From contig VBAW01000023.1 in the NCBI GenBank assembly GCA_005888635.1, forward strand, positions 1 to 64,000: 64,000 nucleotides of DNA, in the 5' to 3' direction. This document shows, in pieces, positions 26,971-42,617 of the stretch (position 1 is the first letter of the stretch; each line of letters begins with the position of its first letter). Made by a program: the position numbers and the translations under genes. Under the pieces are notes generated by a model. The model was not told where the DNA came from. It did no database searches and worked only from the letters and a program-made list of their open reading frames with translations. The DNA is from Candidatus Bathyarchaeota archaeon (GTDB taxonomy: Archaea > Thermoproteota > Bathyarchaeia > 40CM-2-53-6).

Positions 26971-27558
26971 CTAGTCAATTGCGCCGTGTTGTTTGAGAAG
27001 CGCTACGATTCTGTCATTGTTGCGTTCTGAAGCGACTGCTAGTGGAGACTTTCCTTGAAAATTCTTCGCCTTTGCATCGGGTCCTGCATTATCAAGCAAC
27101 CACTCGACGATTTCGTGGTTGCCCCTCGATACGGCGTTCTGTAGCGCGAGAGTCGCGCCGGATTTCGCACCTCGTTCGAAGACCAGTTGAACCAGTCGCG
27201 GATTTTCGCTCCACACTGCGTGAGGCAACAGTGGTATTCCGTGAGCCCCGGTAGCATGGGCATTCCGAGGATCCTCATTCAGTCTTCGTACGACTTCGTC
27301 TTGCATGCCGAGCATGGCTGCGGTACAGATCTCCAAAGGGGCACCCTGCTTGAGAAGAAATTGGGCGACATTAGCGTTGCCGACTTGGGCGGCGGCCTGG
27401 ATGGCTGTTTCGGTATCGTTCTGGTTCCATCGATATGATACATTGAGGAGTTCAGGATTCTCTGCAAGCATCTGTCTAACCTTCTCTAGGTTTCCGTGTC
27501 CGGCGATGACGAATTCCCGGATCTGCTCCGTGGAAGGTGGCCGTTGCTCCGTCTGCAC
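26971..27558 (-). CDS. Ankyrin-repeat protein
   Basis: Repeated units such as ETAIQAAAQVGNANVAQFLLKQGAPL and NHEIVEWLLDNAGPDAKAKNFQGKSPLAVA. Confidence 0.85.
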   Translation of the reverse strand: MQTEQRPPSTEQIREFVIAGHGNLEKVRQMLAENPELLNVSYRWNQNDTETAIQAAAQVGNANVAQFLLKQGAPLEICTAAMLGMQDEVVRRLNEDPRNAHATGAHGIPLLPHAVWSENPRLVQLVFERGAKSGATLALQNAVSRGNHEIVEWLLDNAGPDAKAKNFQGKSPLAVASERNNDRIVALLKQHGAID

Positions 27559-27663
27559 GAATTGCTATTACTCAAATGCAAGTATAACCTTTGCTTGAGG
27601 TAGGCTTAGTTTCCCAGCCACTTGACTCTTGACTTCGCATCAAGTTTTGCCAATTACATTGTT

Positions 27664-27903
27664 CTAGCCGAGTATTGGTTTCCCTGTCAGCTCGACCAGC
27701 CTCTTACCTTTCATGAGCCGGGAAACCCAGAGGACCCCTCCGAGCTCCAGCTTCATCAGTTCCCGATTGAGTTCTCTAAAGCTGACCTCCCCGAAGTTTG
27801 ACTTCACCTCTTTTTGCAGGTCAACGTCGCTCATCGAGCCCTTCTTTTCCAAGATCTCCACGATGGCTAAGGACATAGGCCTAGGGCTCCATATCTTGCT
27901 CAA
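27664..27903 (-). CDS. Small winged-helix-like protein
   Basis: VEILEKKGSMSDVDLQKEV...LGGVLWVSRLMKGKRLVEL. Confidence 0.55.
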   Translation of the reverse strand: MSKIWSPRPMSLAIVEILEKKGSMSDVDLQKEVKSNFGEVSFRELNRELMKLELGGVLWVSRLMKGKRLVELTGKPILG

Positions 27904-27939
27904 CGCTCGGTCACAAGGATAGATTATGCCAGAAGGGGT

Positions 27940-30114
27940 CTAGGCTACTGCGACGGGCGCTCTCTGCTTCTTGAATCTCTTCGTGAATCCCTGATACCAC
28001 TTCTCCATGTCACTTGTCATCGAAGGCTTGATTCGATCCAAGGCATCCCGAAAGTCCTCCATCGTAACACTATTCGTCTCGATATCTCGCCTCAAAGAGA
28101 TGAGCCCCGCCTCTCTGCAAACACCTTCTAGATCAGCCCCCGAGTAGCCTGCGGCTTGACTGGTAATCTGGTCCACATCAACATCTTTGGCTAAGGGCAT
28201 GTTTCGAGTGTGGATCTTCAAAATCTGGAGACGGGTGCCGTGATCCGGTGCTGGCACGAAGATGAGCCTATCGAACCGGCCCGGTCGTAAAATGGCTGGG
28301 TCAATCATGTCCGGCCGGTTGCTCGCGCCTATGACGACCACGTTGACCAGGGCTTCGATGCCGTCCATCTCAGTCAGCAACTGGCTTATCACGTGCTCTG
28401 AGGCACCGCCGTCATCGGAGCCCATTCCTCTGCTAGGAGCAATCGAGTCGAGCTCGTCGAAGAAAATAATGGATGGGGCAGCGCTGCGACCTTTCCTAAA
28501 GACCTCGCGGATGCCCTTCTCTGATTCCCCAACCCACTTGCTGAAGAGCTCAGGACCCTTGATCGAAATGAAGTTAGCCTCGCTCTCAGTTGCAACAGCT
28601 CTAGCCAGCATTGTCTTCCCGCAGCCCGGGGGGCCAAAGAGGAGAATGCCCTTTGGCGGCCTTATTCCAATTCTCTTGAAGACTTCAGGCTTCTTGATGG
28701 GCCATTCGACTGCCTCCTGAAGTTCCTGTTTGACATCGGTCAGCCCCCCTACATCCGCCCATTGGACGGAGGGTACTTCGACGTAGACCTCCCGCATCGC
28801 GGTGGGAGTAATTTCTCGGTAGGCGTTCATGAAATCGTCTAGGTTCACTTCCATCTTCTCAAGCATCGCGCTCGGGATTCTTTCGTCCTCTAGGTTAACC
28901 TGAGGAAGATAGCGTCTCAATGATTTCATTGCGGCCTCTCTGCAGAGTGCTGAGATGTCAGCGCCAGTGTAGCCGTGACAAATCTCAGACAACCGGTCTA
29001 GGTTCACATCAGCAGTTAACGGCATGGCTCGCGTGTGAATCTGCAGAATTTCGTGTCTGCCTATTTTGTCAGGGACTCCGATCTCTATCTCCCTGTCGAA
29101 GCGTCCCGGGCGTCGCAGTGCCGGATCAATGGCGTTAGGCCGGTTGGTAGCACCTATCACGATGATGTTTCCCCTGGCGCCCATGCCGTCCATCAGGGAG
29201 AGCAGTTGCGCCACGACTCTATGTTCCACTTCACCGGTCACTTCTTCTCTCTTGGGAGCGATGGCATCCAATTCGTCGATGAAGATTATGCTCGGAGCAG
29301 TCTCCTGGGCTTTCTGGAAGATCTCTCGGAGTCTAGCTTCAGATTCGCCGTAGAACTTTGACATGATCTCGGGTCCGGAGATGACGTAGAAGTTTGCATC
29401 TGACTCGTTGGCGACAGCCTTGGCTACGAGTGTTTTGCCGCAGCCTGGGGGGCCGTAGAGGAAGATTCCTTTGGGGGGCTCGATGCCTAGCCGCTGGAAG
29501 AGCTCAGGGTGTCGGAGTGGAAGTTCCACCATTTCCCGTATTCTCTGAATCTCCCCCCGGAGGCCACCAACGTCCTCGTAGGTGACGATCGGTAAGCCCT
29601 TCTTTTCCGGTGAAGGTTCGCTCATCACTTGGAGAACAGTTGACTCTGTGACCTTCACGGGACCGTGGGGACGGGTCCTGGTTGCGAGTAGAGGTACGGA
29701 GCTGCCGAATATGCTCAGAAGGGTCATGTCTCCTTCGATGAAGGGCATGTCCATGAATCGACGTTTGACAAAGCTCACGAACTCGTCGTCTACGCTCAAG
29801 CGGACGTCGGTGGGTGCAAAGACGATTGTCTGGGAGTCGTGTACTTCCGCCTTCTTGATAGTGATGAACTCGTTGAGGGCTACTCCTGCGTTCCTCCTGA
29901 GAAGCCCGTCGATCCGTGCGATTTCCTGAGCCTGATCTTCGGCATAAGCCGGCCAGGCAATGGCGACCGTAGTGCGCTTGCCGCGTACTTCTATGAAGTC
30001 GCCGGCCGTTATCCCGAGCTTCTCCATTGTCGCATTATCGATGCGGACTTTACCATGCCCAACATCTCGCTGTTTAGCATCAGCTACTCGGACCTGTACT
30101 TCTTTGGCCATCAT
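27940..30114 (-). CDS. cdc48: Cdc48/VAT-type AAA ATPase
   Basis: N-terminal Cdc48 fold; two Walker A ([18 protein letters not shown]), two DELD boxes. Confidence 0.97.
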
Positions 30115-30479
30115 TAATGGTTCAACTCCATGGTTGTGATGGGCAGACTGAGTTCCGGAGAAGACTGTCGTCTAATGCTCCGGACTGCTCCTGACCTGTC
30201 CCTTCATCGTTCTATTCGGCCACAATAGGTTTTATCGTCATTATTAGCGATGTGTATCTCATTCAATAGCCTGCGCTTCTCACCGGGCAGAAATAGGAAT
30301 CGGCAAGTCCCACCGGGGACTTTCCCTGGCACTTCCCATCCTAAACGACAAGCTTCTTACTGCGTATTTCAAGATTCGCTGACGATCTCAATCCAAAGAT
30401 GCCCCACGCGCGACAATTTCGCGCATTCAACCGTTTGTAACGTCTTTATCGCTCGTTGAGCTGAGGAGTTAGAGGATTC

Positions 30480-31739
30480 ATGGGAGCTGGTTTCGAAAGT
30501 TTCGGCCTGGAACTTCCATTGGTCCAGGCTGTGCGGGAAATGGGCTTTGGTGAGCCGTTCCCCATACAGGCTATGGCTATCGCTCCCCTTCTCGAGGGCA
30601 GAGACCTGATGGGCCAGGCTCATACTGGGGCTGGCAAGACTCTTGCCTTCGCACTGCCCATGCTTCAGAAAATAGATCATCAACTGCCGGGAATCCAAGG
30701 ACTGGTAATAGTTCCTACAAGAGAGCTAGCTCTTCAAGTGGCGCGTGAGTTCGAGAAGCTTGCTAAACACCTTCGCGTCAGGGTCGCGGCGATCTACGGA
30801 GGCGCGAGCATGAGGCTTCAGATAGAGAGGCTAAGGAATCGCTCTTGCAGTATCATCATCGCAACTCCTGGCAGGTTGATCGATCATCTTGACCGGCGGA
30901 CTGTGAGTTTGGACAAGACGAGTTTCGTTGTTCTAGATGAAGCCGATAGAATGTTGGACATGGGATTCATCGACGATGTACGAATCATCCTTAGTCACGT
31001 TTCGAGAAACCACCAGACGGCCCTGTTCTCCGCGACCATGTCCAATGAGGTAGTGAAACTTGCTCATCGGTACATGAAAAACCCGCTGAGGGTATTCGTT
31101 GACACAGACGAGCCGACGGTGGACTCTGTCCAGCAGAAATTTGTTAGAGTAGACGAGGGCGGAAAATTCCCCACCCTCCGCGCGCTCCTAAACAACGAGC
31201 ACATCACGAAGGGTTTGATCTTCTGCGAGACAAAGGCAAGGGCGGGAGAGCTGGCGCAGGCTTTACAGGATCAGCACTACAAGGCCTTGGCTTTGCACAG
31301 TGATCTCTCACAGTACCAGAGAGACAGCGCTGTTCACTCGTTCCGCATTGGCCTTACAAACCTGCTGGTAGCCACGGAGGTCGCAGCAAGAGGCTTGGAC
31401 ATACCCAAGGTAAGCCACGTCGTAAACTACGACATGCCCTTGGAGCCCAAAATGTACTTCCACCGAATCGGCCGAACGGCCCGAGCAGGAAAACCCGGCA
31501 TTGCGCTCTCCCTCATCACCCGTCAAGACGAAGACGGCTTCAAGCAGATAAGAAAGATGACATCATCCGACCTCCGCGAAGTCGCAGATGGCCTTTTGCC
31601 TGAAAATCGTGTCGGTTCGAAGTTCTTGCTCCCCACGCGCCCCTCGCAGGGACAAGCCGCCCAAAGATTGTCTTCAGGGAGGCGGCCGCGACGATTTAAT
31701 CGTCGGGAAAGGTCATTCAGACGAAATCGTCGGCGTTGA
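30480..31739 (+). CDS. DEAD-box RNA helicase
   Basis: AHTGAGKT, PTRELALQ, DEADRMLDMGF, SAT, HRIGRTARAGK; Arg-rich tail. Confidence 0.95.
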   Translation: MGAGFESFGLELPLVQAVREMGFGEPFPIQAMAIAPLLEGRDLMGQAHTGAGKTLAFALPMLQKIDHQLPGIQGLVIVPTRELALQVAREFEKLAKHLRVRVAAIYGGASMRLQIERLRNRSCSIIIATPGRLIDHLDRRTVSLDKTSFVVLDEADRMLDMGFIDDVRIILSHVSRNHQTALFSATMSNEVVKLAHRYMKNPLRVFVDTDEPTVDSVQQKFVRVDEGGKFPTLRALLNNEHITKGLIFCETKARAGELAQALQDQHYKALALHSDLSQYQRDSAVHSFRIGLTNLLVATEVAARGLDIPKVSHVVNYDMPLEPKMYFHRIGRTARAGKPGIALSLITRQDEDGFKQIRKMTSSDLREVADGLLPENRVGSKFLLPTRPSQGQAAQRLSSGRRPRRFNRRERSFRRNRRR

Positions 31740-31922
31740 GTATTGGCCAGGGGATAGTTTTCTGGCTAGAATCTTACCTTAGCCAAAGGTGGCTTTCTTG
31801 ACTCGCTCGAAACATCTCGAGACGGGGTTTCTAGCAAGCCTGCCGAAACCTGCTTGTCCAAGTTGAAGGAAATATCAAATCGTTAACCCTGATTCAGAAT
31901 ACGACACTTCGCATACATCGTT

Positions 31923-31947
31923 TGGTGGGGCGGGTGGGATTTGAACC
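31923..31947 (-). repeat. Displaced tRNA 3'-end fragment (putative distal att repeat)
   Basis: TGGTGGGGCGGGTGGGATTTGAACC; 24/25 identical to 40860-40884; no tRNA body upstream. Confidence 0.8.
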
Positions 31948-32049
31948 AGAATAAGTATGGATCCAGCACCTTGCTCCGAGGCTGAGGACTTAGGAAGGCT
32001 TTATCCAAATACCTCGTACACGAGAATGTTTCTGGTCTGATTTTCCTCA

Positions 32050-32395
32050 GCCGCTATTACTGAGCTTCACGCCAATCTTGGTCTTCCCGTCTGGCGAGAT
32101 ATCAAACTTTGATACGGGTAGAAAGCGACAGGATATTCTCTCTATCGCATCAGAGCCGGTGAAGGCATCTACACGGGCTATGAGCTGTCTGTCCAAAATG
32201 GAACCGGTCACAAGCTCATGTACACATAAGGTACGGTGACGGCGTAGGCGGGTCGCGGGACGTTCCCGGCTTGTACGACTCTACCAATTCTGCCAAGCCG
32301 CTCCCGTATCGGGATCTCCCTTTCTGAGTACTTGCGTACTTGAGCCTCTACCGATCCGGACGGACTTGCGAAGGCCTAGGTTGGGCTTTTGTTGC
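32050..32395 (-). pseudogene. Decayed ORF, unknown family
   Basis: Minus-strand reading SGSVEAQVRKYSEREIPIRERLGRIGRVVQAGNVPRPAYAVTVPYVYMSL then frame change to VTGSILDRQLIARVDAFTGSDAIERISCRFLPVSKFDISPDGKTKIGVKLSNSG*. Confidence 0.4.
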
Positions 32396-34235
32396 CCGTC
32401 ACGAGCCGATCCACCTGAGCTTCGTAGAGCCGATTGTAAGCGCCTCCCTTGCTCATCAGGACCTCGTGCGTCCCTTCCTCGGCAATCCCTCCGTTTTCGA
32501 TGACGACTATCCGTTCGGCGTCTATGATCGAGGACAGCCTGTGTCCGATGACGATCAAGGTCCTCCCCTTTGCCACCCGTCGGAGTGCATCTTGAATGAG
32601 AGACTCGGACTCAGAGTCGATATTCGATGTCGCCTCGTCAAGGATGAGAATGCTCGGATCCTTGAGGAGAGCTCGAGCAATCGCGATTCGCTGCCTCTGA
32701 CCCACGGAGAGAGTGACCCCGCGTTCGCCAATCTCAGTATCATATCCCTTCTGGAGGGAGACGATGAACTCGTGAGCGTTCGCCGCCTTTGAAGCCCGGC
32801 TGACCTCCTCGTCGGATGCTTGAAGTTTCCCGTACAGGATGTTCTCCCGAATCGTCCCAGAGAAGAGGACAGGCTCTTGGAGGACGAGGCCTATCTTGCT
32901 ACGGAGGTACCCGAGGCTCAGGCTCGTTATTGGATATCCGTCGACCAGTATCCTCCCAGAAGTTGGCTCATAGAACCTCATGAGGAGGTTCACAACGGTG
33001 GACTTCCCAGCCCCGCTCGATCCGACGATGGCAACTGTCTCGCCCGGACGGATCAACAAGGATAAGTCCCTGAGGACGTTTTTGTCCGGCCGATAGCCGA
33101 ACGATACCCTTTCGAACTCGATTCGCCCTTCGATCATTTGCGGAGTGAGGCTGCCTGGAGTCTCCAAAACTTCCGCGTCTCGGTCGACGAGTTCGAATAC
33201 CCGGTCGGCCGCGGCAAGTGCCTTCTGAAGCTTGAGGTTCCCCTTGCTCAGTTGGACTAGAGGCTTGAACATCTTGTCCATTACCCCCAGGAAAGCGACG
33301 AGTGCTCCAAGCTTCAGGGCGTTTGAGACCACTGCCGGGGCGGCGAACCAGATCACCGCCAAGGTGGCGAGCAAAACGAGGAGATCGACAGAGGAGCCAT
33401 AGATGGCGGACAACCGTGCAAGCCGCACCTTCGCCTTCGTCATCGAAAGGGATCGGTCGCGGAATTCCGTCGCCTTGCGGTCCTCCAGCCGGAAACTCTT
33501 CACGATCCGAATCCCGGAGAAGACCTCGAACGCCTGGCTGGTCAGCTCAGCAAATGCCTCGCGAATCCTCGCCGTGAAGCGCTTGATCGTCCGCTTGAAC
33601 AGGTTCACTACAATCACCAAGACGACGCAGGCCGGCGCGACCAGGAGGGTGAGTCTCCGGTCGACCAGGAAGAGGAGGCCGAGTGCACCCGCCACCGTGA
33701 CTGCGTTCGAAACGAAGCCTGCGACATCGTCTTCCATGAAATTCTCCACCTCGGTGGTGTCACTGACCAACCGGGATACTAAGTCCCCCGAATGAGACTT
33801 GTCGAAGACGCCCACGGGCAAGAGCTCGATGTGTTGATAGACGTCGGACCGTAGCTTGTGTATCGTCCTCTGGCTCAGTACTTCGCTCAGGTACACCTGA
33901 AAGAACGAACTGATCTGATTGAGGCCGAACGTCAGGCCGAGGAGGAATATGACGAAAGGCAAAAGGCCTAGGTTCGCTTGGCTGAGATTTCCCCCGCCGA
34001 GGACGCTGTTGAAGAAGACGAACCCTATGATCCATGGCTGCGCCAAATTGAGAGCGGCGCCCGAGATGATTGCGACGGTTACCCCGACCGCGTACGGCCA
34101 GTGTATCTTCACGTAGGAGAGAAGTCGGAAAACGGTCCGTCTTCGGGAGTGTCCTCCGGTTTTCGCTTGGGAAAGGTCGGCAGAGGGCCCCCCTCTATCC
34201 AGACGGGTGTCCTTAATTCTGCCGTGTTTGCCCAT
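32376..34235 (-). CDS. ABC multidrug/lipid exporter (TM-NBD half transporter)
   Basis: Six-TM domain; GSSGAGKSTVVNLLMRF, LSVGQRQRIAIARALL, LILDEATSNID. Confidence 0.95.
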   Translation of the reverse strand: MGKHGRIKDTRLDRGGPSADLSQAKTGGHSRRRTVFRLLSYVKIHWPYAVGVTVAIISGAALNLAQPWIIGFVFFNSVLGGGNLSQANLGLLPFVIFLLGLTFGLNQISSFFQVYLSEVLSQRTIHKLRSDVYQHIELLPVGVFDKSHSGDLVSRLVSDTTEVENFMEDDVAGFVSNAVTVAGALGLLFLVDRRLTLLVAPACVVLVIVVNLFKRTIKRFTARIREAFAELTSQAFEVFSGIRIVKSFRLEDRKATEFRDRSLSMTKAKVRLARLSAIYGSSVDLLVLLATLAVIWFAAPAVVSNALKLGALVAFLGVMDKMFKPLVQLSKGNLKLQKALAAADRVFELVDRDAEVLETPGSLTPQMIEGRIEFERVSFGYRPDKNVLRDLSLLIRPGETVAIVGSSGAGKSTVVNLLMRFYEPTSGRILVDGYPITSLSLGYLRSKIGLVLQEPVLFSGTIRENILYGKLQASDEEVSRASKAANAHEFIVSLQKGYDTEIGERGVTLSVGQRQRIAIARALLKDPSILILDEATSNIDSESESLIQDALRRVAKGRTLIVIGHRLSSIIDAERIVVIENGGIAEEGTHEVLMSKGGAYNRLYEAQVDRLVTGNKSPT

Positions 34236-34360
34236 TCTCCCACCGCCGAATTGTTGGGCCTACCGTGCCGCTCCCAAACCGCGGCCCGAGCTGCTAATCG
34301 AAGCCCAAATCCAAGTCAGCGCTATGACCGCCCTGAGGTCGATGTAGCGGAGCGACGTCC

Positions 34361-35130
34361 TCATTGCTTCTGTGATCCTCTCCAGGTTCCTAAATCAAGC
34401 TGGCGTTGATCAGCCGCGAACATGACGCCGACGACAGGGCTTTCTGAGGCCATAAGCCCGTGGATCGCCTCGGTCAGCTGAACCTCCTCGCCCGAACTAT
34501 TCCGGATCCCTGATAACGAGTCGAAGATCTGGTCTGTGAAAATGAACACATGTATCATCGCGTGATTGGTCCCGGGACTTGAGGCTTCTCCACCGCCGAG
34601 GTGATCCGAAATACCCCTTCCTTGAGGGAATTGCCTTCAACAACCCCTTGTCGCCTCAGGTAAGGCGCGTCTTCTAGAAGGAACGTCGCGGCCATACTAT
34701 GCTTACGGTGCATCACTGCGAGGCAGTCGAGGTAGCGATCACCCGCCGAGAGGATGAACTCGTCGGCGGCTTGCACTAGGAGCGTCCCCTTGATGAGGGG
34801 TCTCCTGAGACGCACTGTTTCTCCGAAACCTAGCTGCTTCGGCTGATTGAGAAAGGTGAGACTTGAGGTCCTGATCTTATTGTAAAAGCTGCAGAGGCCT
34901 TCCGGGGCCTTCCCCCTCTTTCCCAGGGAATCCAGAAACCTCGAGTCGGGGTTGAAGTGATCTTCGATCGCTCGCTTCCCCCTTCCGACCCCTATGTAGA
35001 ATCTCCGAACGCCCGCCTTGCGAAGCTGTTCGAAGACCGCGTATACGACGCGTCTGACCTGAGTGTGGTCGCTCCTATCAAGGGTGATCACGGGGAACAT
35101 CTCCTTGGGCACCTCCTTCGAGAAGGGGAG
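34361..35130 (-). pseudogene. UTP-glucose-1-phosphate uridylyltransferase (GalU-like), N-truncated and frameshifted
   Basis: VPKEMFPV, GRGKRAIEDHF, NQPKQLGFGETV, GVVEGNSLKEGVFRITSAVEKP in 34555-35112; C-terminal IFTDQIFDSL...GEEVQLTEAIHGL in another frame (34361-34558). Confidence 0.75.
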
Positions 35131-36097
35131 AGGCTAGCGGGTGATCCGCGCGCCACGCCGCCTCGCGCACGAGCGAATGAGCTCCAAGAATTGGCTGGGT
35201 TCTCAGCCCGGTCTTCAGACCGCTCGCAGCAAGGTGAAGGAGCGCGGCCGCCCAATACCATTCCAGAGAGTTCGGGTCTACCAAGCCTCGCGTGCCTTCC
35301 AAGAATGCCTCCGTAGCTCGGGTCGCCTCGTCTGCGACTTCCTGGTGCCGTACTGCGGCACGGGAAATTGTCGCGAGGAACATGCCCGCGTCGACCTCGA
35401 AAGATCCTTGGCCAAACTGTTGCCAGTCAATCACGCCGGGGCCGTCCCCCATATCGAGGATGTGACGTGCATAGAGGGTGCTGTGCACGAGGTGTGGCGT
35501 TCCTTCCCTCGGCTGGGTCCGCGTCAGTACCTTTGCGGTTCGCTTGGCGGTGGCCCCGAGGAGTGGATCGGCCGCGGTAAGAGCCCCGACGGACACCCCC
35601 ACCTGATACAGAAGATGACCGCATCCCCGCGGCGGGCCGAACCTGGCATCTACCCCTGAAGCCGCGTGGAGCCACGCTACCGCAAGTTCTCCCGCGCGCC
35701 TGCCTTTTCCATCCTTAACTAATTGACTAGCGGATGGTCCTTCGAGCCAGCTCAGTACGAGGATCTTTTGGTCGCGATCCCAGCTGAGGAGGCGTGGTAC
35801 TCGAGGCCCGAAGTCGCCAGCGAGACCCAAGACTGCGAGCCGCCGATAAACCTCGGCCTCAGCGGAGGGGTCGTCCGCGTAGATCTTGATGACGAATCGA
35901 CGATTTGCCACCCTTGCCTCCAGAGTTGCGCGTGAACCCGGGACATAGTTGTGCATGTAGAGCGTCGCCAATTCCAGTTCTGGCTCTGACATCACCTGCG
36001 CAAGGCCCCGTGTCATGATCTTTCTGAGGCCGGGTAGGGCCGGATCATCAGGTAGCTCACTCGCCGTAGTCCGACTTTCATCCTTCGCATCCGCCAT
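35078..36097 (-). CDS. Aminoglycoside phosphotransferase-like protein with degenerate catalytic loop
   Basis: RRFVIKIYADDPSAEAEVYRRL; HSTLYARHILDMGDGPGVIDWQQFG where HGDxxxxN is expected. Confidence 0.7.
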   Translation of the reverse strand: MADAKDESRTTASELPDDPALPGLRKIMTRGLAQVMSEPELELATLYMHNYVPGSRATLEARVANRRFVIKIYADDPSAEAEVYRRLAVLGLAGDFGPRVPRLLSWDRDQKILVLSWLEGPSASQLVKDGKGRRAGELAVAWLHAASGVDARFGPPRGCGHLLYQVGVSVGALTAADPLLGATAKRTAKVLTRTQPREGTPHLVHSTLYARHILDMGDGPGVIDWQQFGQGSFEVDAGMFLATISRAAVRHQEVADEATRATEAFLEGTRGLVDPNSLEWYWAAALLHLAASGLKTGLRTQPILGAHSLVREAAWRADHPLASPLLEGGAQGDVPRDHP

Positions 36098-36099
36098 TC

Positions 36100-38535
36100 C
36101 TATCCCTCGGAGATCTCGTGTTGGGCTGCCTCGATGACCTTGGTGATCTTCTCAGGCCAACGCGATTCTTGCCGCCTGAAGATTCCCGCAGCCACTTCGA
36201 GGAGCGCACCAGCGCAATGCAAGGAGAATCGCCGCCTCCAGGAGTTAGGGACGAAGCGGAAGTACTCCTCTACGAAGGTCGCTCCTGCGATCTTCGTGTG
36301 CGTCATGGGGGTCGAATCGAGTCCCACGCGCCCCGTGATGTAGGCGAAGAGCTGCGCCGGGTCGAGCAGCGGATCCGCCAAGGCCGCCCAGTCGAGATCT
36401 ATGAACGTCACGTGCCCGTTCGATAGGAAGATGTGATCAGGCTTGAGGTCACCATGGATTGGCGCGGGTCCTCCCTCGTCCAAGCCTCCTGTGACCGAAT
36501 CGGAAATCACCTGAACCGCCTCTCGGACTTGGGGGCATGCCCACTGAACGAGGGCCGAGGCTTTCTCCACCTCCACCAGTTGGTCCGCGAGCGAATAGCG
36601 TCGCTTGATAGGAAACTCGTCCTGGTTGAACGCGGCAACCGCGCGAGCAACTAGCCTCAGTTCGTCTGATGGGTCCGGATTCGTTGCTAAGATCTGCGTC
36701 AGCGAAACGCCCGGGGCCTCCTCGAGCGCCAAGGTGCGCAGCTCATCGACATAGACGATAGGCTTGACCGTCGAGTAGGGGCGCTTTCCGTCCGGCCCGC
36801 TCCCGGATAGCGATTGCAGAATCCGAAAAGTCTCCGCGCCACGATCGTTTCGATAAACCTTCAGGTAGCAGCGCACCTCTTCGCTTGTCGCAGATACTGC
36901 GTCGTGCGCGCGGATCACGTATCGGAGCGCCGCCCCAAACTCGGTCCGGTATCGAGTGGGCTCGATGGTTCGCTGCTCGACACCCCATTCGCCCGGCCTG
37001 AGTCGGCCCAGGAGTGAGGGCTCGATACCCTGAACCGCTCCGCCTACTACAGAGCCGAGAGTCCGAAGCTTTCGATCATACGGATAGACTTCCACCAGCA
37101 TCTGGAGGCTGGGGATGAAGCCCACCGGTTCAAAGGTGAGGCAGCTTTTGGGAATCCTTCCTTCGGGGACCTCGGCTTTCATCTCCTCCCACCGCCTGGA
37201 GGCCTCACCGTCGGCATAAAGAACGCCCGTGACCCACTGGTCCCACCGACGGCCCGTACTGGGTTCTGCAACACGTAGCGTATACTGCAGGACGTGCCGC
37301 GAACCTGACTGGCGGCAACGAAACCGAAAGGCCACGCAGTCGTGGATCCTGTAGTCCTTCCCCGGGACCGCCTTCAGATGGCGGCGGAACACCTCGAGCA
37401 TGAACTGCGGATTGGACGCAACCGAGAGCTGTGGGACTTCATGGTCGACGGGGAACCCGACTCCCCCGTTCTGGTCGAGTCCTCGCTCTGTAACCATTGA
37501 CTCAACGGGTGATAGAGGCGGGCCGCCAGCGGCGACCCCACTCTGCACTGAAGGCTTGAGGAACAATCCCATGAGCTGGTCCGCTTCGGCGTTTCGTTGA
37601 ACGTTGCCATCAGGGTCCTTGTTCCTATCTTCTCTAAGCAGCCGGTGAACCTTCCTCAAGAGGATAGCGCGTTCGTACCAGGCCACCCGATTCTCCCAGC
37701 TATGCTCGGAGGTGCATAGTCGTCTGTAGGCGTCGAGGAGGGCTGGCCGCACGGACCCAAAGTCCCTCAGTTTCCACGGCTTGCGGATGGTGATTCGGCG
37801 CAGCTGCACGAGGAGGTTACCTAGGTCCAAGGCTGGGTCCCCTCGCGCACACTTATCAAAATCGAGCACGACGATTTCCCCTCCTCTCCAGAGAAGATTC
37901 GCGGGCCCGAAGTCACCGTGCACGAACGAGAGATGTGGGGGGAGTCGTGGCGCCTCATCCATGATTTGAGCGAAGGCTCTTCGCAAACTTGGCGCCTCGC
38001 AAGGACGCCAGGCACTGAGGTCCTCGAGTCTCGGCCTGAGGTCTGCGAGCAAGGTCTCAGGCGAAGTGATCGTGGGAGTGTATACTGGCATAGCGTGCAA
38101 GGTGGCCAGAGCGCCTCCCATCGCCGCGAGAATCGCCCCGGTGTCCCGGGCGATTGCGGAACTCACCGGCTCGCCCGATTCATACGTCAGAAGCAGAAGG
38201 TGGAGCGGCGCGTGATATGCAAGGACGGTTGGAACGGTCAGGCCAGTGCCGCGGGAGCCTTCGCTGGCCCCGATGCCCCTCAGGACCGCTGCGACCCGAA
38301 GAGCGTCATCTCCGCGTTCGTAGTACTTCCCCACCCACTGATAGCGTTGGATGTAGGGAAGCTCCGCGACGCGAGCCTCGAGATCGTAGCGCACAACCCG
38401 CTGCTTGCCATGCTCCGTGAATTGGGCATCTGAAGTCAATCGCTCAAGGTTTGCGTCCGTACCGCACACATCACGTAGTACACCCCTCAGAACGGCCCAC
38501 GTATCCTCCGGCTCCAGGGTGGTTATGGGATTCAT
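36100..38535 (-). CDS. Tandem double aminoglycoside-phosphotransferase-fold protein
   Basis: Two catalytic loops: HGDFGPANLLWRGGEIVVLDFDKC and HGDLKPDHIFLSNGHVTFIDLDW. Confidence 0.85.
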   Translation of the reverse strand: MNPITTLEPEDTWAVLRGVLRDVCGTDANLERLTSDAQFTEHGKQRVVRYDLEARVAELPYIQRYQWVGKYYERGDDALRVAAVLRGIGASEGSRGTGLTVPTVLAYHAPLHLLLLTYESGEPVSSAIARDTGAILAAMGGALATLHAMPVYTPTITSPETLLADLRPRLEDLSAWRPCEAPSLRRAFAQIMDEAPRLPPHLSFVHGDFGPANLLWRGGEIVVLDFDKCARGDPALDLGNLLVQLRRITIRKPWKLRDFGSVRPALLDAYRRLCTSEHSWENRVAWYERAILLRKVHRLLREDRNKDPDGNVQRNAEADQLMGLFLKPSVQSGVAAGGPPLSPVESMVTERGLDQNGGVGFPVDHEVPQLSVASNPQFMLEVFRRHLKAVPGKDYRIHDCVAFRFRCRQSGSRHVLQYTLRVAEPSTGRRWDQWVTGVLYADGEASRRWEEMKAEVPEGRIPKSCLTFEPVGFIPSLQMLVEVYPYDRKLRTLGSVVGGAVQGIEPSLLGRLRPGEWGVEQRTIEPTRYRTEFGAALRYVIRAHDAVSATSEEVRCYLKVYRNDRGAETFRILQSLSGSGPDGKRPYSTVKPIVYVDELRTLALEEAPGVSLTQILATNPDPSDELRLVARAVAAFNQDEFPIKRRYSLADQLVEVEKASALVQWACPQVREAVQVISDSVTGGLDEGGPAPIHGDLKPDHIFLSNGHVTFIDLDWAALADPLLDPAQLFAYITGRVGLDSTPMTHTKIAGATFVEEYFRFVPNSWRRRFSLHCAGALLEVAAGIFRRQESRWPEKITKVIEAAQHEISEG

Positions 38536-39764
38536 GCGGCCCGTCCTGTCAAAGTCATTTCCTCACGGGGAGATGGATGGGGAAAGCCCTCGCTGCCAAG
38601 CCATCGACTGAGGTACGCGGTCAGGCGGGTGGCCCCATCGAAGGAGGGCACGATCTCGCGCACTCTTTGGGCCTGAGCCCGCGGATCAAGGCTCAGCGCC
38701 CATTCCAATGCCTCAGTGAGGCCCTCGCCCGTCAGGTCTCGCGGGTGGACCCATTTCGCCAAACCATGCGACGCCAACACTTCCGCACGAATCGTTTGCT
38801 CGCGCTTGTAAGTGGCCCGCGGCACAATCACCAGGGGTCGCCCTTGCGAGAGGGCCTCCCAAACGCTGTTGTAGCCACCCATACCAACTACGGCGTCCGC
38901 AGCAGCAACGAGTTGGAAATTGTCGGCCGTCGACAGTACGCGACTCGCGGGAGGGGAGTGCGCGTGCAGTCTCGCCCGTTGCTCCTCAGGCATGAACGGT
39001 CCCGTCACGAAAACTGCGCATAGATCGGGAAGCCTCGACTGCAACCGGGCGACGGCCGCCTCAGCGGCTTCGAGCACAGGATACCCATCCTTACCGCCAC
39101 CTACGGTCGCCACGATGAGGCGTCCGTTTCGAGGCAGCCCGTATAGGCCACGTATCTCATTCGTATTGACTGCCTCCCGCTCTTGAACGACGTACCCACA
39201 GTAGTAGAGTTTGGATCTTACGGACGGAGGAATGGAATAGGCTTCCGCCACATCGAAGAGGTGTGGCAAACCGTACACCGCTATGCCATCGTACAGTTTT
39301 TCGAAGGCACTGTACACCCCGAGCGCCTCCCACTTCGCACGGATGCGACCGGCGTCGTCCATTATGTCGCGCAGCCCTAGAATGAACTTTGTATTCGGGT
39401 ACCGCGCTTTCAGGGCGTAGAGGCCATCCCGAAACTCGCTTCTGTGGCCGAAGGGCTCGTGATCGACCAGCACAAGGTCCGGGGCCAGTTCTAGCGCCAG
39501 ATCGCGCAGGATTCGGGCCCGTTCATCGCTGAGATGCTGGTTGTATGCCTCATCGTCCTCCTCCGTCTTCGCAAGGCCGGTGGAAGCCGAGTGGGTGGGC
39601 AGTTTAACATATGCGCAGCCATTGGGCAACGGTAATCCGTCGAGGAGGGGAGATTCGGTCACCAGGCGGGCGGCTAAGTTAGGATAAGCCCCAAGGAGGT
39701 GGCGGGCGATGGTCAGGCTCCGGGTGATGTGCCCCATCCCTTTTCCGTCCTGGGCGTACAGCAT
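38532..39764 (-). CDS. GT28/MurG-like glycosyltransferase
   Basis: DGKGMGHITRSLTIARHL N-terminus; VVGMGGYNSVWEALSQGRPLVIVPR C-terminal nucleotide-sugar motif. Confidence 0.82.
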   Translation of the reverse strand: MLYAQDGKGMGHITRSLTIARHLLGAYPNLAARLVTESPLLDGLPLPNGCAYVKLPTHSASTGLAKTEEDDEAYNQHLSDERARILRDLALELAPDLVLVDHEPFGHRSEFRDGLYALKARYPNTKFILGLRDIMDDAGRIRAKWEALGVYSAFEKLYDGIAVYGLPHLFDVAEAYSIPPSVRSKLYYCGYVVQEREAVNTNEIRGLYGLPRNGRLIVATVGGGKDGYPVLEAAEAAVARLQSRLPDLCAVFVTGPFMPEEQRARLHAHSPPASRVLSTADNFQLVAAADAVVGMGGYNSVWEALSQGRPLVIVPRATYKREQTIRAEVLASHGLAKWVHPRDLTGEGLTEALEWALSLDPRAQAQRVREIVPSFDGATRLTAYLSRWLGSEGFPHPSPREEMTLTGRAA

Positions 39765-40040
39765 AATCGTGTGAGCTGGTCCGTCGGGGTCATCAAGTCG
39801 CTTATCTAGGCGCCGATCCGGTGCTAGGTCAGTCGTCTGGGACCAACTTTTGGGTTCGACCTATCTACGACACTAACTTGATTCGGTATTTCAGCATCAC
39901 TATGATCATTGGATTCGATTATAGATATCGCAATCTGAAGGATGAGTTTTGATTCCGGCAATCTCCAGATATAACCTCCAACTCGGATTTTCTATCCATG
40001 GTCCCTCTCGCGGTTTTTCAATGGCGCGGAGTAAACAGGG

Positions 40041-40217
40041 TCGGGGGGTAAAATGGTCCTCGATCGCCCGCTTCCTTCTGGCCGACTACAGCGTAGAAGC
40101 TCCTTATGCCTGCTCATAAACGGCTTGGACGAGTGGCTTCAACCCCAAGCACTGTCTACCGTCGTAAGTGATTATCGGGGGTATCTCCTTGGGTATCTCC
40201 TTGCAGAAAGGGAGCAT
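40041..40217 (-). pseudogene. Relict second copy of GalU-like N-terminus
   Basis: Minus-strand reading MLPFCKEIPKEIPPIITYDG...AVYEQ, IRSFYAVVG and RKRAIEDHFTP, with two stops and frame changes. Confidence 0.7.
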
Positions 40218-40859
40218 CCTAGTCCCCATTCCTCCCACGGTATGATCGCCTCGTATTCATAGAATCGGTTCGGATGATAAACTGCATGTTCGATTACAAT
40301 AGCTTATAGTGAATCACAAGTGTTCACTAGGGAAACGTTTCCAGCCGGTCCCTATTACACGGCGAGGCGGTTGTCGGAGAAAAACAAGAGGGGTGGGGAA
40401 GAGGCTCCGAAGGACTTACCTCTTTTACTGTCCGAGTCATCTGTGCCAACTCGGCACCACACAAAGGTGGTGTAGGAATGGCCCTGCTAATGTACACGAG
40501 ACAGGTGTGACCTTAGCCTGTCAATTGATCAGAGACCATCACCGATGATTAGACAACCATCTGTTGTGGGGGACTGAGGTTTCGAAGCTCATCCAAGAAT
40601 GCCCTTCGCGCCATTTGCGAATCAATCGTCTCCCCACATATTGTACACTTGACGAGTTTGCCAACGAAATTGATGTCGCTCTTGGAGAACTGGGTCGATT
40701 GTTTTACACTCGCGGAGATAACGCCACTCGTCTGTTAGAATTGGACCGCCCAAACAGACCACCTCATAATCTGCTCGTAACGAAGCAGAGAATGAGCCAG
40801 GGGGTGTAAGAGAAACGGTCTGTTAGGTGTCTCTGTAATCAGGATTTATGACCGACTTG

Positions 40860-40884
40860 TGGTGGGGCCGGTGGGATTTGAACC
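40860..40884 (-). repeat. tRNA 3'-end repeat (putative proximal att)
   Basis: TGGTGGGGCCGGTGGGATTTGAACC; partner of 31923-31947. Confidence 0.8.
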
Positions 40885-41004
40885 CACGACCTCTGGCCCC
40901 GATCTTCTCGGAGTCACCAGCGCCCCAGGGTCACCGTCCATAACTGGACTCTGGTATCCTCTGGGCGGGGCTAAATCCCCTGGACCAAGCTAGACGACGG
41001 CCCC
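40860..41004 (-). tRNA. tRNA with intron(s), isotype unresolved
   Basis: Acceptor GGGGCCG/CGGCCCC, D-arm GTCTAGCTTGGTCCA, T-arm GTGGGTTCAAATCCCAC, ACCA end; span ~145 nt implies ~65-70 nt of intron. Confidence 0.8.
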
Positions 41005-41132: not shown

Positions 41133-42617
41133 ATGGAAACGGCCACCGCAATAGAGACAACTAGGCGTGTTGTTATCGAACGGGATATTCCAGAGCCTGC
41201 CGTAGCAGGGCTTGTGGAATTCATTGACCGATACTACATCCGATCGAAGACGAGATTTATCCAAGACCTTTCTTATCGCAAAACCGCTAGCGGGACCGGC
41301 TTCGAACTGTTCTGGATACTCAAGCCCTTTGGATCAGAGCAAGCGGCTCCTCTCGCCGTGACTCTGAAGATAAGCAAGGCGGCCATCGAGCTTGATTTTC
41401 CGGGGTTAGACCCGAGTAACAAGCCCCTTCGGAATGCTGTCGAAAGAACCGTTGATGAGATCGAAGCAGCTGTCCTTTCTTATTTTCAGAACATCAAGAC
41501 GACCAGTCTCTACTTTGTTATCGGCGCGTCCGAGGAGCACTCCGAGGCGCCTGACCAGAGGGGCATAATGCGAAATGTCGCGAAAAGAATTTTCACGGGT
41601 AACACAACAAGCCTGTTCCTCTCGTTCATTCTCCTAAGCTTCGCCCTATTCTTCATTATCGGAGTCTACACCGTCTTCGTATTGATCAGTCTTCAGCTCG
41701 TAGCTCTGATTTTCTCGGACAAGATTGTTTACAGAATTGGCAGTGTCCGCCCTGACGCTGAAAGACCACTTGTAACAATAGTAAGTGTCCGATCCAACGC
41801 TGAAACTCTCAAGTCTATCTCTCAGCATGGCAAGAAGATACTCTCACAAATTCGAGAGGAAATTGCGAGAAGCGCGACGGCCACATATTCTGCATCAGCC
41901 AACGAGGAGCTCAAGTCAACAGTCATAGGCTCGCTGCTCAGGCATGGCATTATCGCGTCCGGCAAAGAGATCACTATTAAGACGAGAGACGTTTACCGCA
42001 TCGTTCACCAAGTATCGGAAAAGTTCGGCAGACAGACTCCAAAGATCACCATCGCAAACACGATCGTCTCCAATGCTTCCGCGACTGGAATCTCGTCGAG
42101 CCGTTCCACGGTGATGATCACGGCCGGTTCATTGGAAGACCTAAACGATGACGAACTAGAAGCGGTTATCGGTCACGAGCTGGGACACGTGGCAGGCCAC
42201 GATCCCGTCATTCTGTTCGCGGCTACATCTTTCGAGTTTCTCGGAAGGTTCTATCTCTGGCTTCCTGTATTACTCTCTCTGGGCTTTTTCTACTTCCTTT
42301 TGGCATTTGGCGCGATCTATCTGATAGGGAAGTTTCTCGAGACTAGAGCTGACACCGAATCCGCGGTAGTCGTTGGAAACCCAGAGGCATTATCCTCTGC
42401 TTTAACAAAGATTGGGTTCAGGCAGCTCTATCGTGAGAAATACAATCCAGGCGCAAAGCTGTTCGACTGGTTTCAGTTTGACCCACATCCGCCTATCTAT
42501 TTCCGAATAGCTAGGCTGTCAAAGTACTCGGGAAAACAAGAGCCCGTAAAACACACATTTCTGGTCTCGATACGAGACATCGTCGTGGGCTTCTTCTCTG
42601 CGTTGTTCCAGGTCTAG
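41133..42617 (+). CDS. M48-family metallopeptidase (HtpX-like), membrane-bound
   Basis: AVIGHELGHVAGHDP zinc motif; TM helices; E(TRADTES) third-ligand region. Confidence 0.9.
   Translation: METATAIETTRRVVIERDIPEPAVAGLVEFIDRYYIRSKTRFIQDLSYRKTASGTGFELFWILKPFGSEQAAPLAVTLKISKAAIELDFPGLDPSNKPLRNAVERTVDEIEAAVLSYFQNIKTTSLYFVIGASEEHSEAPDQRGIMRNVAKRIFTGNTTSLFLSFILLSFALFFIIGVYTVFVLISLQLVALIFSDKIVYRIGSVRPDAERPLVTIVSVRSNAETLKSISQHGKKILSQIREEIARSATATYSASANEELKSTVIGSLLRHGIIASGKEITIKTRDVYRIVHQVSEKFGRQTPKITIANTIVSNASATGISSSRSTVMITAGSLEDLNDDELEAVIGHELGHVAGHDPVILFAATSFEFLGRFYLWLPVLLSLGFFYFLLAFGAIYLIGKFLETRADTESAVVVGNPEALSSALTKIGFRQLYREKYNPGAKLFDWFQFDPHPPIYFRIARLSKYSGKQEPVKHTFLVSIRDIVVGFFSALFQV

Follow-up and report, generated by a model that had tools for sequence, protein, structure and literature searches.

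An 8.9-kb stretch of DNA beside a tRNA-Pro gene of a soil-type Bathyarchaeia archaeon is probably the immobilised, integrase-less remnant of an integrated element, flanked by att-like repeats, lying in an accretion array at this tRNA and comparable in its working to the cis-mobilizable elements (CIMEs) of bacteria. The window analysed here is a stretch of 64,000 nucleotides from one contig of a metagenome assembly (G000). It was compared with related genomes, the closest being G009 (VBBB01000044, "Bathyarchaeota archaeon BA_7"); all the genomes compared are metagenome assemblies, and we counted this against our explanation. The original prediction, a tRNA-bounded island without an integrase, was upheld by island-free loci in relatives, by the lack of a solo tRNA tail at those loci and by integrase-bearing elements at the same tRNA.

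A tRNA-Pro gene and a solo tRNA tail bound the island

The sequence TGGTGGGGCCGGTGGGATTTGAACC at positions 40860-40884 (minus strand), the tRNA-proximal and attL-like repeat, recurs in the same orientation as TGGTGGGGCGGGTGGGATTTGAACC at 31923-31947, the distal and attR-like one. The two copies share 24 of 25 bases, with one mismatch, and no further copy was found within 6 mismatches elsewhere in the 64 kb. The first 17 bp of the proximal repeat, TGGTGGGGCCGGTGGGA, are also the core repeat of a tandem element in a sister strain, described below. The proximal copy is the 3' end, and the putative integration site, of a minus-strand tRNA gene at 40860-41004 with a paired acceptor stem (GGGGCCG/CGGCCCC), a T-stem with 5 of 5 pairs and an encoded CCA. 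The unspliced gene was overlooked by ARAGORN and by Rfam at the gathering score because it contains about three introns; Rfam returned a weak match, as a tmRNA-like acceptor/T-arm. After removal of three introns ARAGORN reported tRNA-Pro(GGG), the intron borders having been chosen by hand, so that their exact positions are putative. Orthologs of this tRNA-Pro are found in 15 of the 18 genomes of the genus. The gene is intact beside the island, which lies on its 3' side. Multi-intron tRNA genes are common in the window genome, where they are overlooked by ARAGORN and Rfam gathering scores.

At the distal repeat the T-stem forms only 2 of 5 pairs, compared with 5 of 5 in 19 of the 21 T-arm matches genome-wide; the tail at 31923 is therefore bodiless and not a hidden tRNA. 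The repeat, the tRNA and the missing body of the distal copy had all been claimed beforehand, and each claim was borne out. A second tRNA of the window genome, ending CCCGCCCCACTA, matches the solo tail equally well, with one mismatch, and the exact parent is therefore indistinguishable from sequence alone; the tail could have come from this second type. On the sister contig C24, another solo tRNA 3' tail (L054:1106-1130) matches a different tRNA, ending GGTCCCGCTA, and the AGAA that follows it is the same as the AGAA after the tail at 31923.

The island holds a G+C-rich operon and no integrase

Between the repeats (31948-40859) G+C content is 0.582, versus 0.52 outside. The island had been described as richer in G+C than its flanks, which is true of the operon (0.58-0.62; about 32.4-39.8 kb), where the excess is confined and reaches up to 4-8 s.d. 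above the flank kilobases, but not of the island ends (31948-32375 and 39765-40859), which at 0.50-0.52 are host-like. As predicted, the island contains no integrase or clear integrase relic, a tblastn search with four related integrase sequences having given only noise; in the 1.1 kb beside the tRNA, the expected position of an integrase, no integrase relic was recognisable either. The arrangement had also been compared to elements of the SSV type (class I), which like the island are tRNA-bounded. This comparison was not supported: neither the island nor the sequence next to its two repeats contains a piece of a split integrase, and related elements carry integrases of the usual unsplit form, whose 3' end adjoins the tRNA 3' end. 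A defence island was considered and rejected, PADLOC giving generic ABC, helicase and AAA matches only.

Related genomes lack the island at the same tRNA

Fourteen orthologous tRNA-Pro loci from the same genus keep the chromosomal neighbours and lack the island, and a solo tRNA tail was found in none of them. The locus is conserved wherever contigs are long enough, with PurB, an Asn-synthase-like gene and a small ORF lying 5' of the tRNA and a paired ABC permease and ATPase 3' of it, the permease beginning about 0.2-0.6 kb past the tRNA in most genomes. G000, G009 and C24 alone have an M48 peptidase gene (41133-42617 in the window) that separates the tRNA from the conserved 5' neighbour. M48 orthologs in G006 and G010, tried as empty sites, were rejected because their surroundings differ and do not include the tRNA.

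In G012 and G003 an ankyrin-repeat gene precedes the permease, 64 bp past the tRNA as its direct neighbour in the former and 0.6 kb past it in the latter. In the window the corresponding gene (26971-27558, minus strand) lies 13.3 kb from the tRNA, with a second CDC48 and a small ORF, a DEAD helicase, the solo tail and the operon in between. The nearest empty site, that of G012, thus differs from the window by a gap of 13.3 kb. The exact empty site that had been sought was not found: the orthologous tRNA loci are free of the island, but no genome compared joins position 31922 directly to the tRNA.

The closest relative carries the same arrangement. On contig C76 of G009 the DEAD helicase, the solo tail and the operon, that is, the left part of the island, follow one another unbroken in DNA 92-93% identical to the window. 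The tail of G009 (L055:8893-8917) carries the window's single mismatch along with additional decay, so that island and solo tail are an arrangement ancestral to both genomes.

Measured against the nearest relatives, the insertion amounts to about 13.3 kb and not 8.9 kb, because the island-free relatives also lack the DEAD helicase and the second CDC48 at this place. The extra segment (27648-31922) contains the second CDC48 with a small downstream winged-helix-like ORF (27648-30132), a duplicate of the pair on contig C53 of this genome, and the DEAD-box helicase (30480-31739); a second CDC48 between the ankyrin-repeat gene and the DEAD helicase is found only in G000 and G009. This segment needs explaining, and its far border lacks a tRNA tail; we counted both points against the 8.9-kb remnant. 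The true unit might be the whole 13.3 kb from the ankyrin-repeat gene to the tRNA, as one element or two in tandem, with the solo tail as an internal scar. We regard this as possible, with the odds somewhat against it. It would account for the absence of both the CDC48-DEAD segment and the island beside the tRNA in G012 and G003, and two matches point the same way: AACGATG occurs both in the flank outside the solo tail and in those arms of the sister integrase elements that adjoin the tRNA (chance about 0.018), and 13 residues just outside the tail (31842-31880) resemble an integrase C-terminus (E about 1). Both matches are weak, however, and there is no tRNA tail at 27559-27648, where short repeats shared by the ankyrin-CDC48 border and the solo tail were not significant. 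Moreover, the G+C content of the CDC48-DEAD segment is host-like, and its CDC48 is a close paralog of a chromosomal copy in the same genome (87% protein identity), with an ortholog elsewhere in G003. The segment may nevertheless be part of the same history as the island.

Integrase-bearing elements occupy the same tRNA in sister strains

In sister strains further elements lie at this tRNA, besides the 8.9-kb island. Contig C24, placed in the assembly G017, reads from the right end of the island through a 17-bp tail, TGGTGGGGCCGGTGGGA, and about 4.5 kb with a frameshifted tyrosine integrase into the whole tRNA, where the same 17 bp recur and where the integrase reading frame ends inside the tRNA. 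The window sequence is the empty site for this element. On both sides of the core of the C24 element GATGAATTTC is found in inverted orientation (read by eye), as would be expected of recombinase arm sites. Since a second, normal copy of the tRNA locus exists in G017, C24 probably belongs to a sister strain and not to G017; that it may be another strain's contig was likewise counted against our explanation. In G009, contig C78 carries sequence foreign to the window directly at the tRNA; an integrase-like C-terminal tail is all that is seen there, and a different contig carries the island. G010 and G005 encode intact relatives of the C24 integrase (PF00589; PHROG integrases), one of them at L113:24-1133 of G010, with their 3' end about 10-40 bp from a tRNA-like 3' end, and a search of viral contigs for the integrase gave no relative. 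The tRNA-Pro gene takes up elements repeatedly, including integrase-bearing ones in tandem.

These observations bear on a second alternative, in which the tail at 31923 would be a tRNA remnant of chance or independent origin, the operon having arrived by ordinary recombination. Such an origin would suit a tail segment that is conserved among many tRNAs and matches two types equally well, in an island where no integrase is present. The tail is, however, nearly the sole bodiless T-arm among the 21 in the genome, it has the orientation and side expected for 3'-end integration, it has no counterpart in any of the 14 island-free loci, and the tRNA that it adjoins demonstrably accepts elements, all of which make a chance remnant improbable.

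The cargo is a selected operon of likely bacterial origin

The four intact genes of the island share one direction (minus strand), and the first three nearly touch. They encode a 410-aa glycosyltransferase of the GT28/MGT-like kind (38532-39764); an 811-aa protein with two APH/kinase-fold domains (36100-38535; HGD motifs at 37897-37920 and 36433-36456); an APH-fold protein of 339 aa (35078-36097) in which HST replaces HGD (35462-35485); and an MsbA-like ABC exporter of 619 aa (32376-34235) with intact Walker A and signature motifs. Lacking the catalytic aspartate of the HGD motif, the 339-aa protein is a probable pseudokinase. A relic of GalU, the UTP-glucose-1-phosphate uridylyltransferase, lies at 34555-35112 on the same strand (including 34945-34977) and is deleted in G009. 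A second, smaller GalU-like relic (KRAIEDHFTP; 40038-40073, minus strand) sits in the non-coding 1.1 kb beside the tRNA, and the presence of separate relics at both ends of the operon suggests rearrangement within the island. The gene content is thus what the original prediction had described, the decayed GalU included.

Of 398 genomes sampled from the phylum, the 397 others yielded no homolog of the glycosyltransferase at E<=1e-25. Homologs are present in 274 bacterial plasmid records, mostly at full length and with 29-35% identity among the matches listed. Solved structures gave weak matches for the glycosyltransferase only and none for the kinase fusion, and no phage records carrying the 811-aa protein were found. 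On the Candidatus Manganitrophus plasmids CP114557 and CP114560, homologs of the glycosyltransferase (32% identity), the APH-fold proteins (24-26%) and the MsbA-like exporter (54%, ATPase part) stand in one polysaccharide-type cluster, and part of a fused glycosyltransferase there weakly resembles GalU. This plasmid cluster is larger, with alginate-lyase-like, radical SAM and alginate export genes, whereas the island has four intact genes. The operon is likely of bacterial origin, and would make and export a surface or secreted glycan, because its homologs reside on bacterial plasmids and are clustered on those of Manganitrophus.

The island is old, inherited and under purifying selection, since relative to G009 its genes have a dS of 0.13-0.21, where the flanking genes span 0.08-0.52, and most comparisons with G009 and with a mis-binned contig give a dN/dS of 0.19-0.31. 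The latter, L134 (VBFV01000192.1), is labelled Chloroflexi, is 97% identical to the island and holds island genes only; its place in a Chloroflexi assembly is probably a binning error caused by G+C content. Although this contig could suggest that G+C-rich bacterial sequence was joined to an archaeal contig by assembly or binning, such an artefact is extremely improbable, given that the left junction of the island is reproduced in G009 and the right one in C24, in independent assemblies at 92-95% identity, and that a contig of island genes only is what mis-binning by G+C predicts. Such G+C-rich islands, as a warning, are mis-binned as bacterial contigs.

Relation to known accretion systems

We propose that small elements with tyrosine recombinases have used the 3' end of tRNA-Pro repeatedly for integration. 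One of them, with a G+C-rich, bacterial-type operon for glycan synthesis and export, would have entered the genome of the ancestor shared by G000 and G009, leaving the tRNA whole and, at its own far end (31923-31947), a tRNA 3' tail, so that the two repeats would be the island's own attL and attR. The integrase gene would then have been lost and the operon retained by selection. Later, in sister strains, integrase-bearing elements would have separated the tRNA from the island by inserting between them, giving tandem accretion, with the window strain lacking the newer element. The island would be immobile alone, and removable in principle only through a neighbour's integrase acting on the flanking sites. 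Of the two fates first proposed, an immobilised remnant or a cargo moved in trans, the remnant is favoured, given that inheritance of the island looks stable, and movement in trans is a possibility.

In Streptococcus salivarius, CIMEs of 1.2-13 kb found in accretion with ICEs/IMEs have kept their att sites and lost their recombination genes (PMC7563491). The island is similar in size, in having att-like repeats and cargo without recombination genes and, in sister strains though not in the window strain itself, in the order of remnant, integrase-bearing element and target gene. It differs in its archaeal host and in that no conjugation or mobilisation genes were seen in its neighbours. By analogy we call it CIME-like in working rather than by descent from an ICE or IME, because no conjugation or relaxase gene was recognised in the island or the C24 element; its repeats correspond to att sites only putatively. 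In archaea, att sites at tRNA 3' ends, loss of integrase and tandem integration at one locus have been documented (PMC8371274, PMC6563490). The "cryptic integrated elements" of Thaumarchaeota target tRNA 3' ends, including those of intron-containing tRNAs, have a median att of 17 bp and form tandem arrays (PMC6563490). The island resembles them in lying at the 3' end of a tRNA, in the shortness of the att-like repeats at this locus (17-25 bp) and in the introns of that tRNA, and differs in having no integrase and a bacterial-type glycan operon as cargo.

A broader reading, in which the tRNA-Pro of Bathyarchaeia is a site of accretion and cargo islands lacking an integrase are carried there by one integrase-bearing partner after another, an archaeal CIME counterpart importing bacterial surface-glycan operons, is speculative and on present evidence rather unlikely. 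The locus is nevertheless a concrete archaeal case of tandem accretion, with the occupied and unoccupied sites both present in sister strains, a pair that makes the 17-bp core site and the integrase family open to testing in vitro. For uncultured soil Bathyarchaeia, it indicates one tRNA locus that repeatedly receives elements and at which a selected, apparently bacterial glycan cassette has become fixed.
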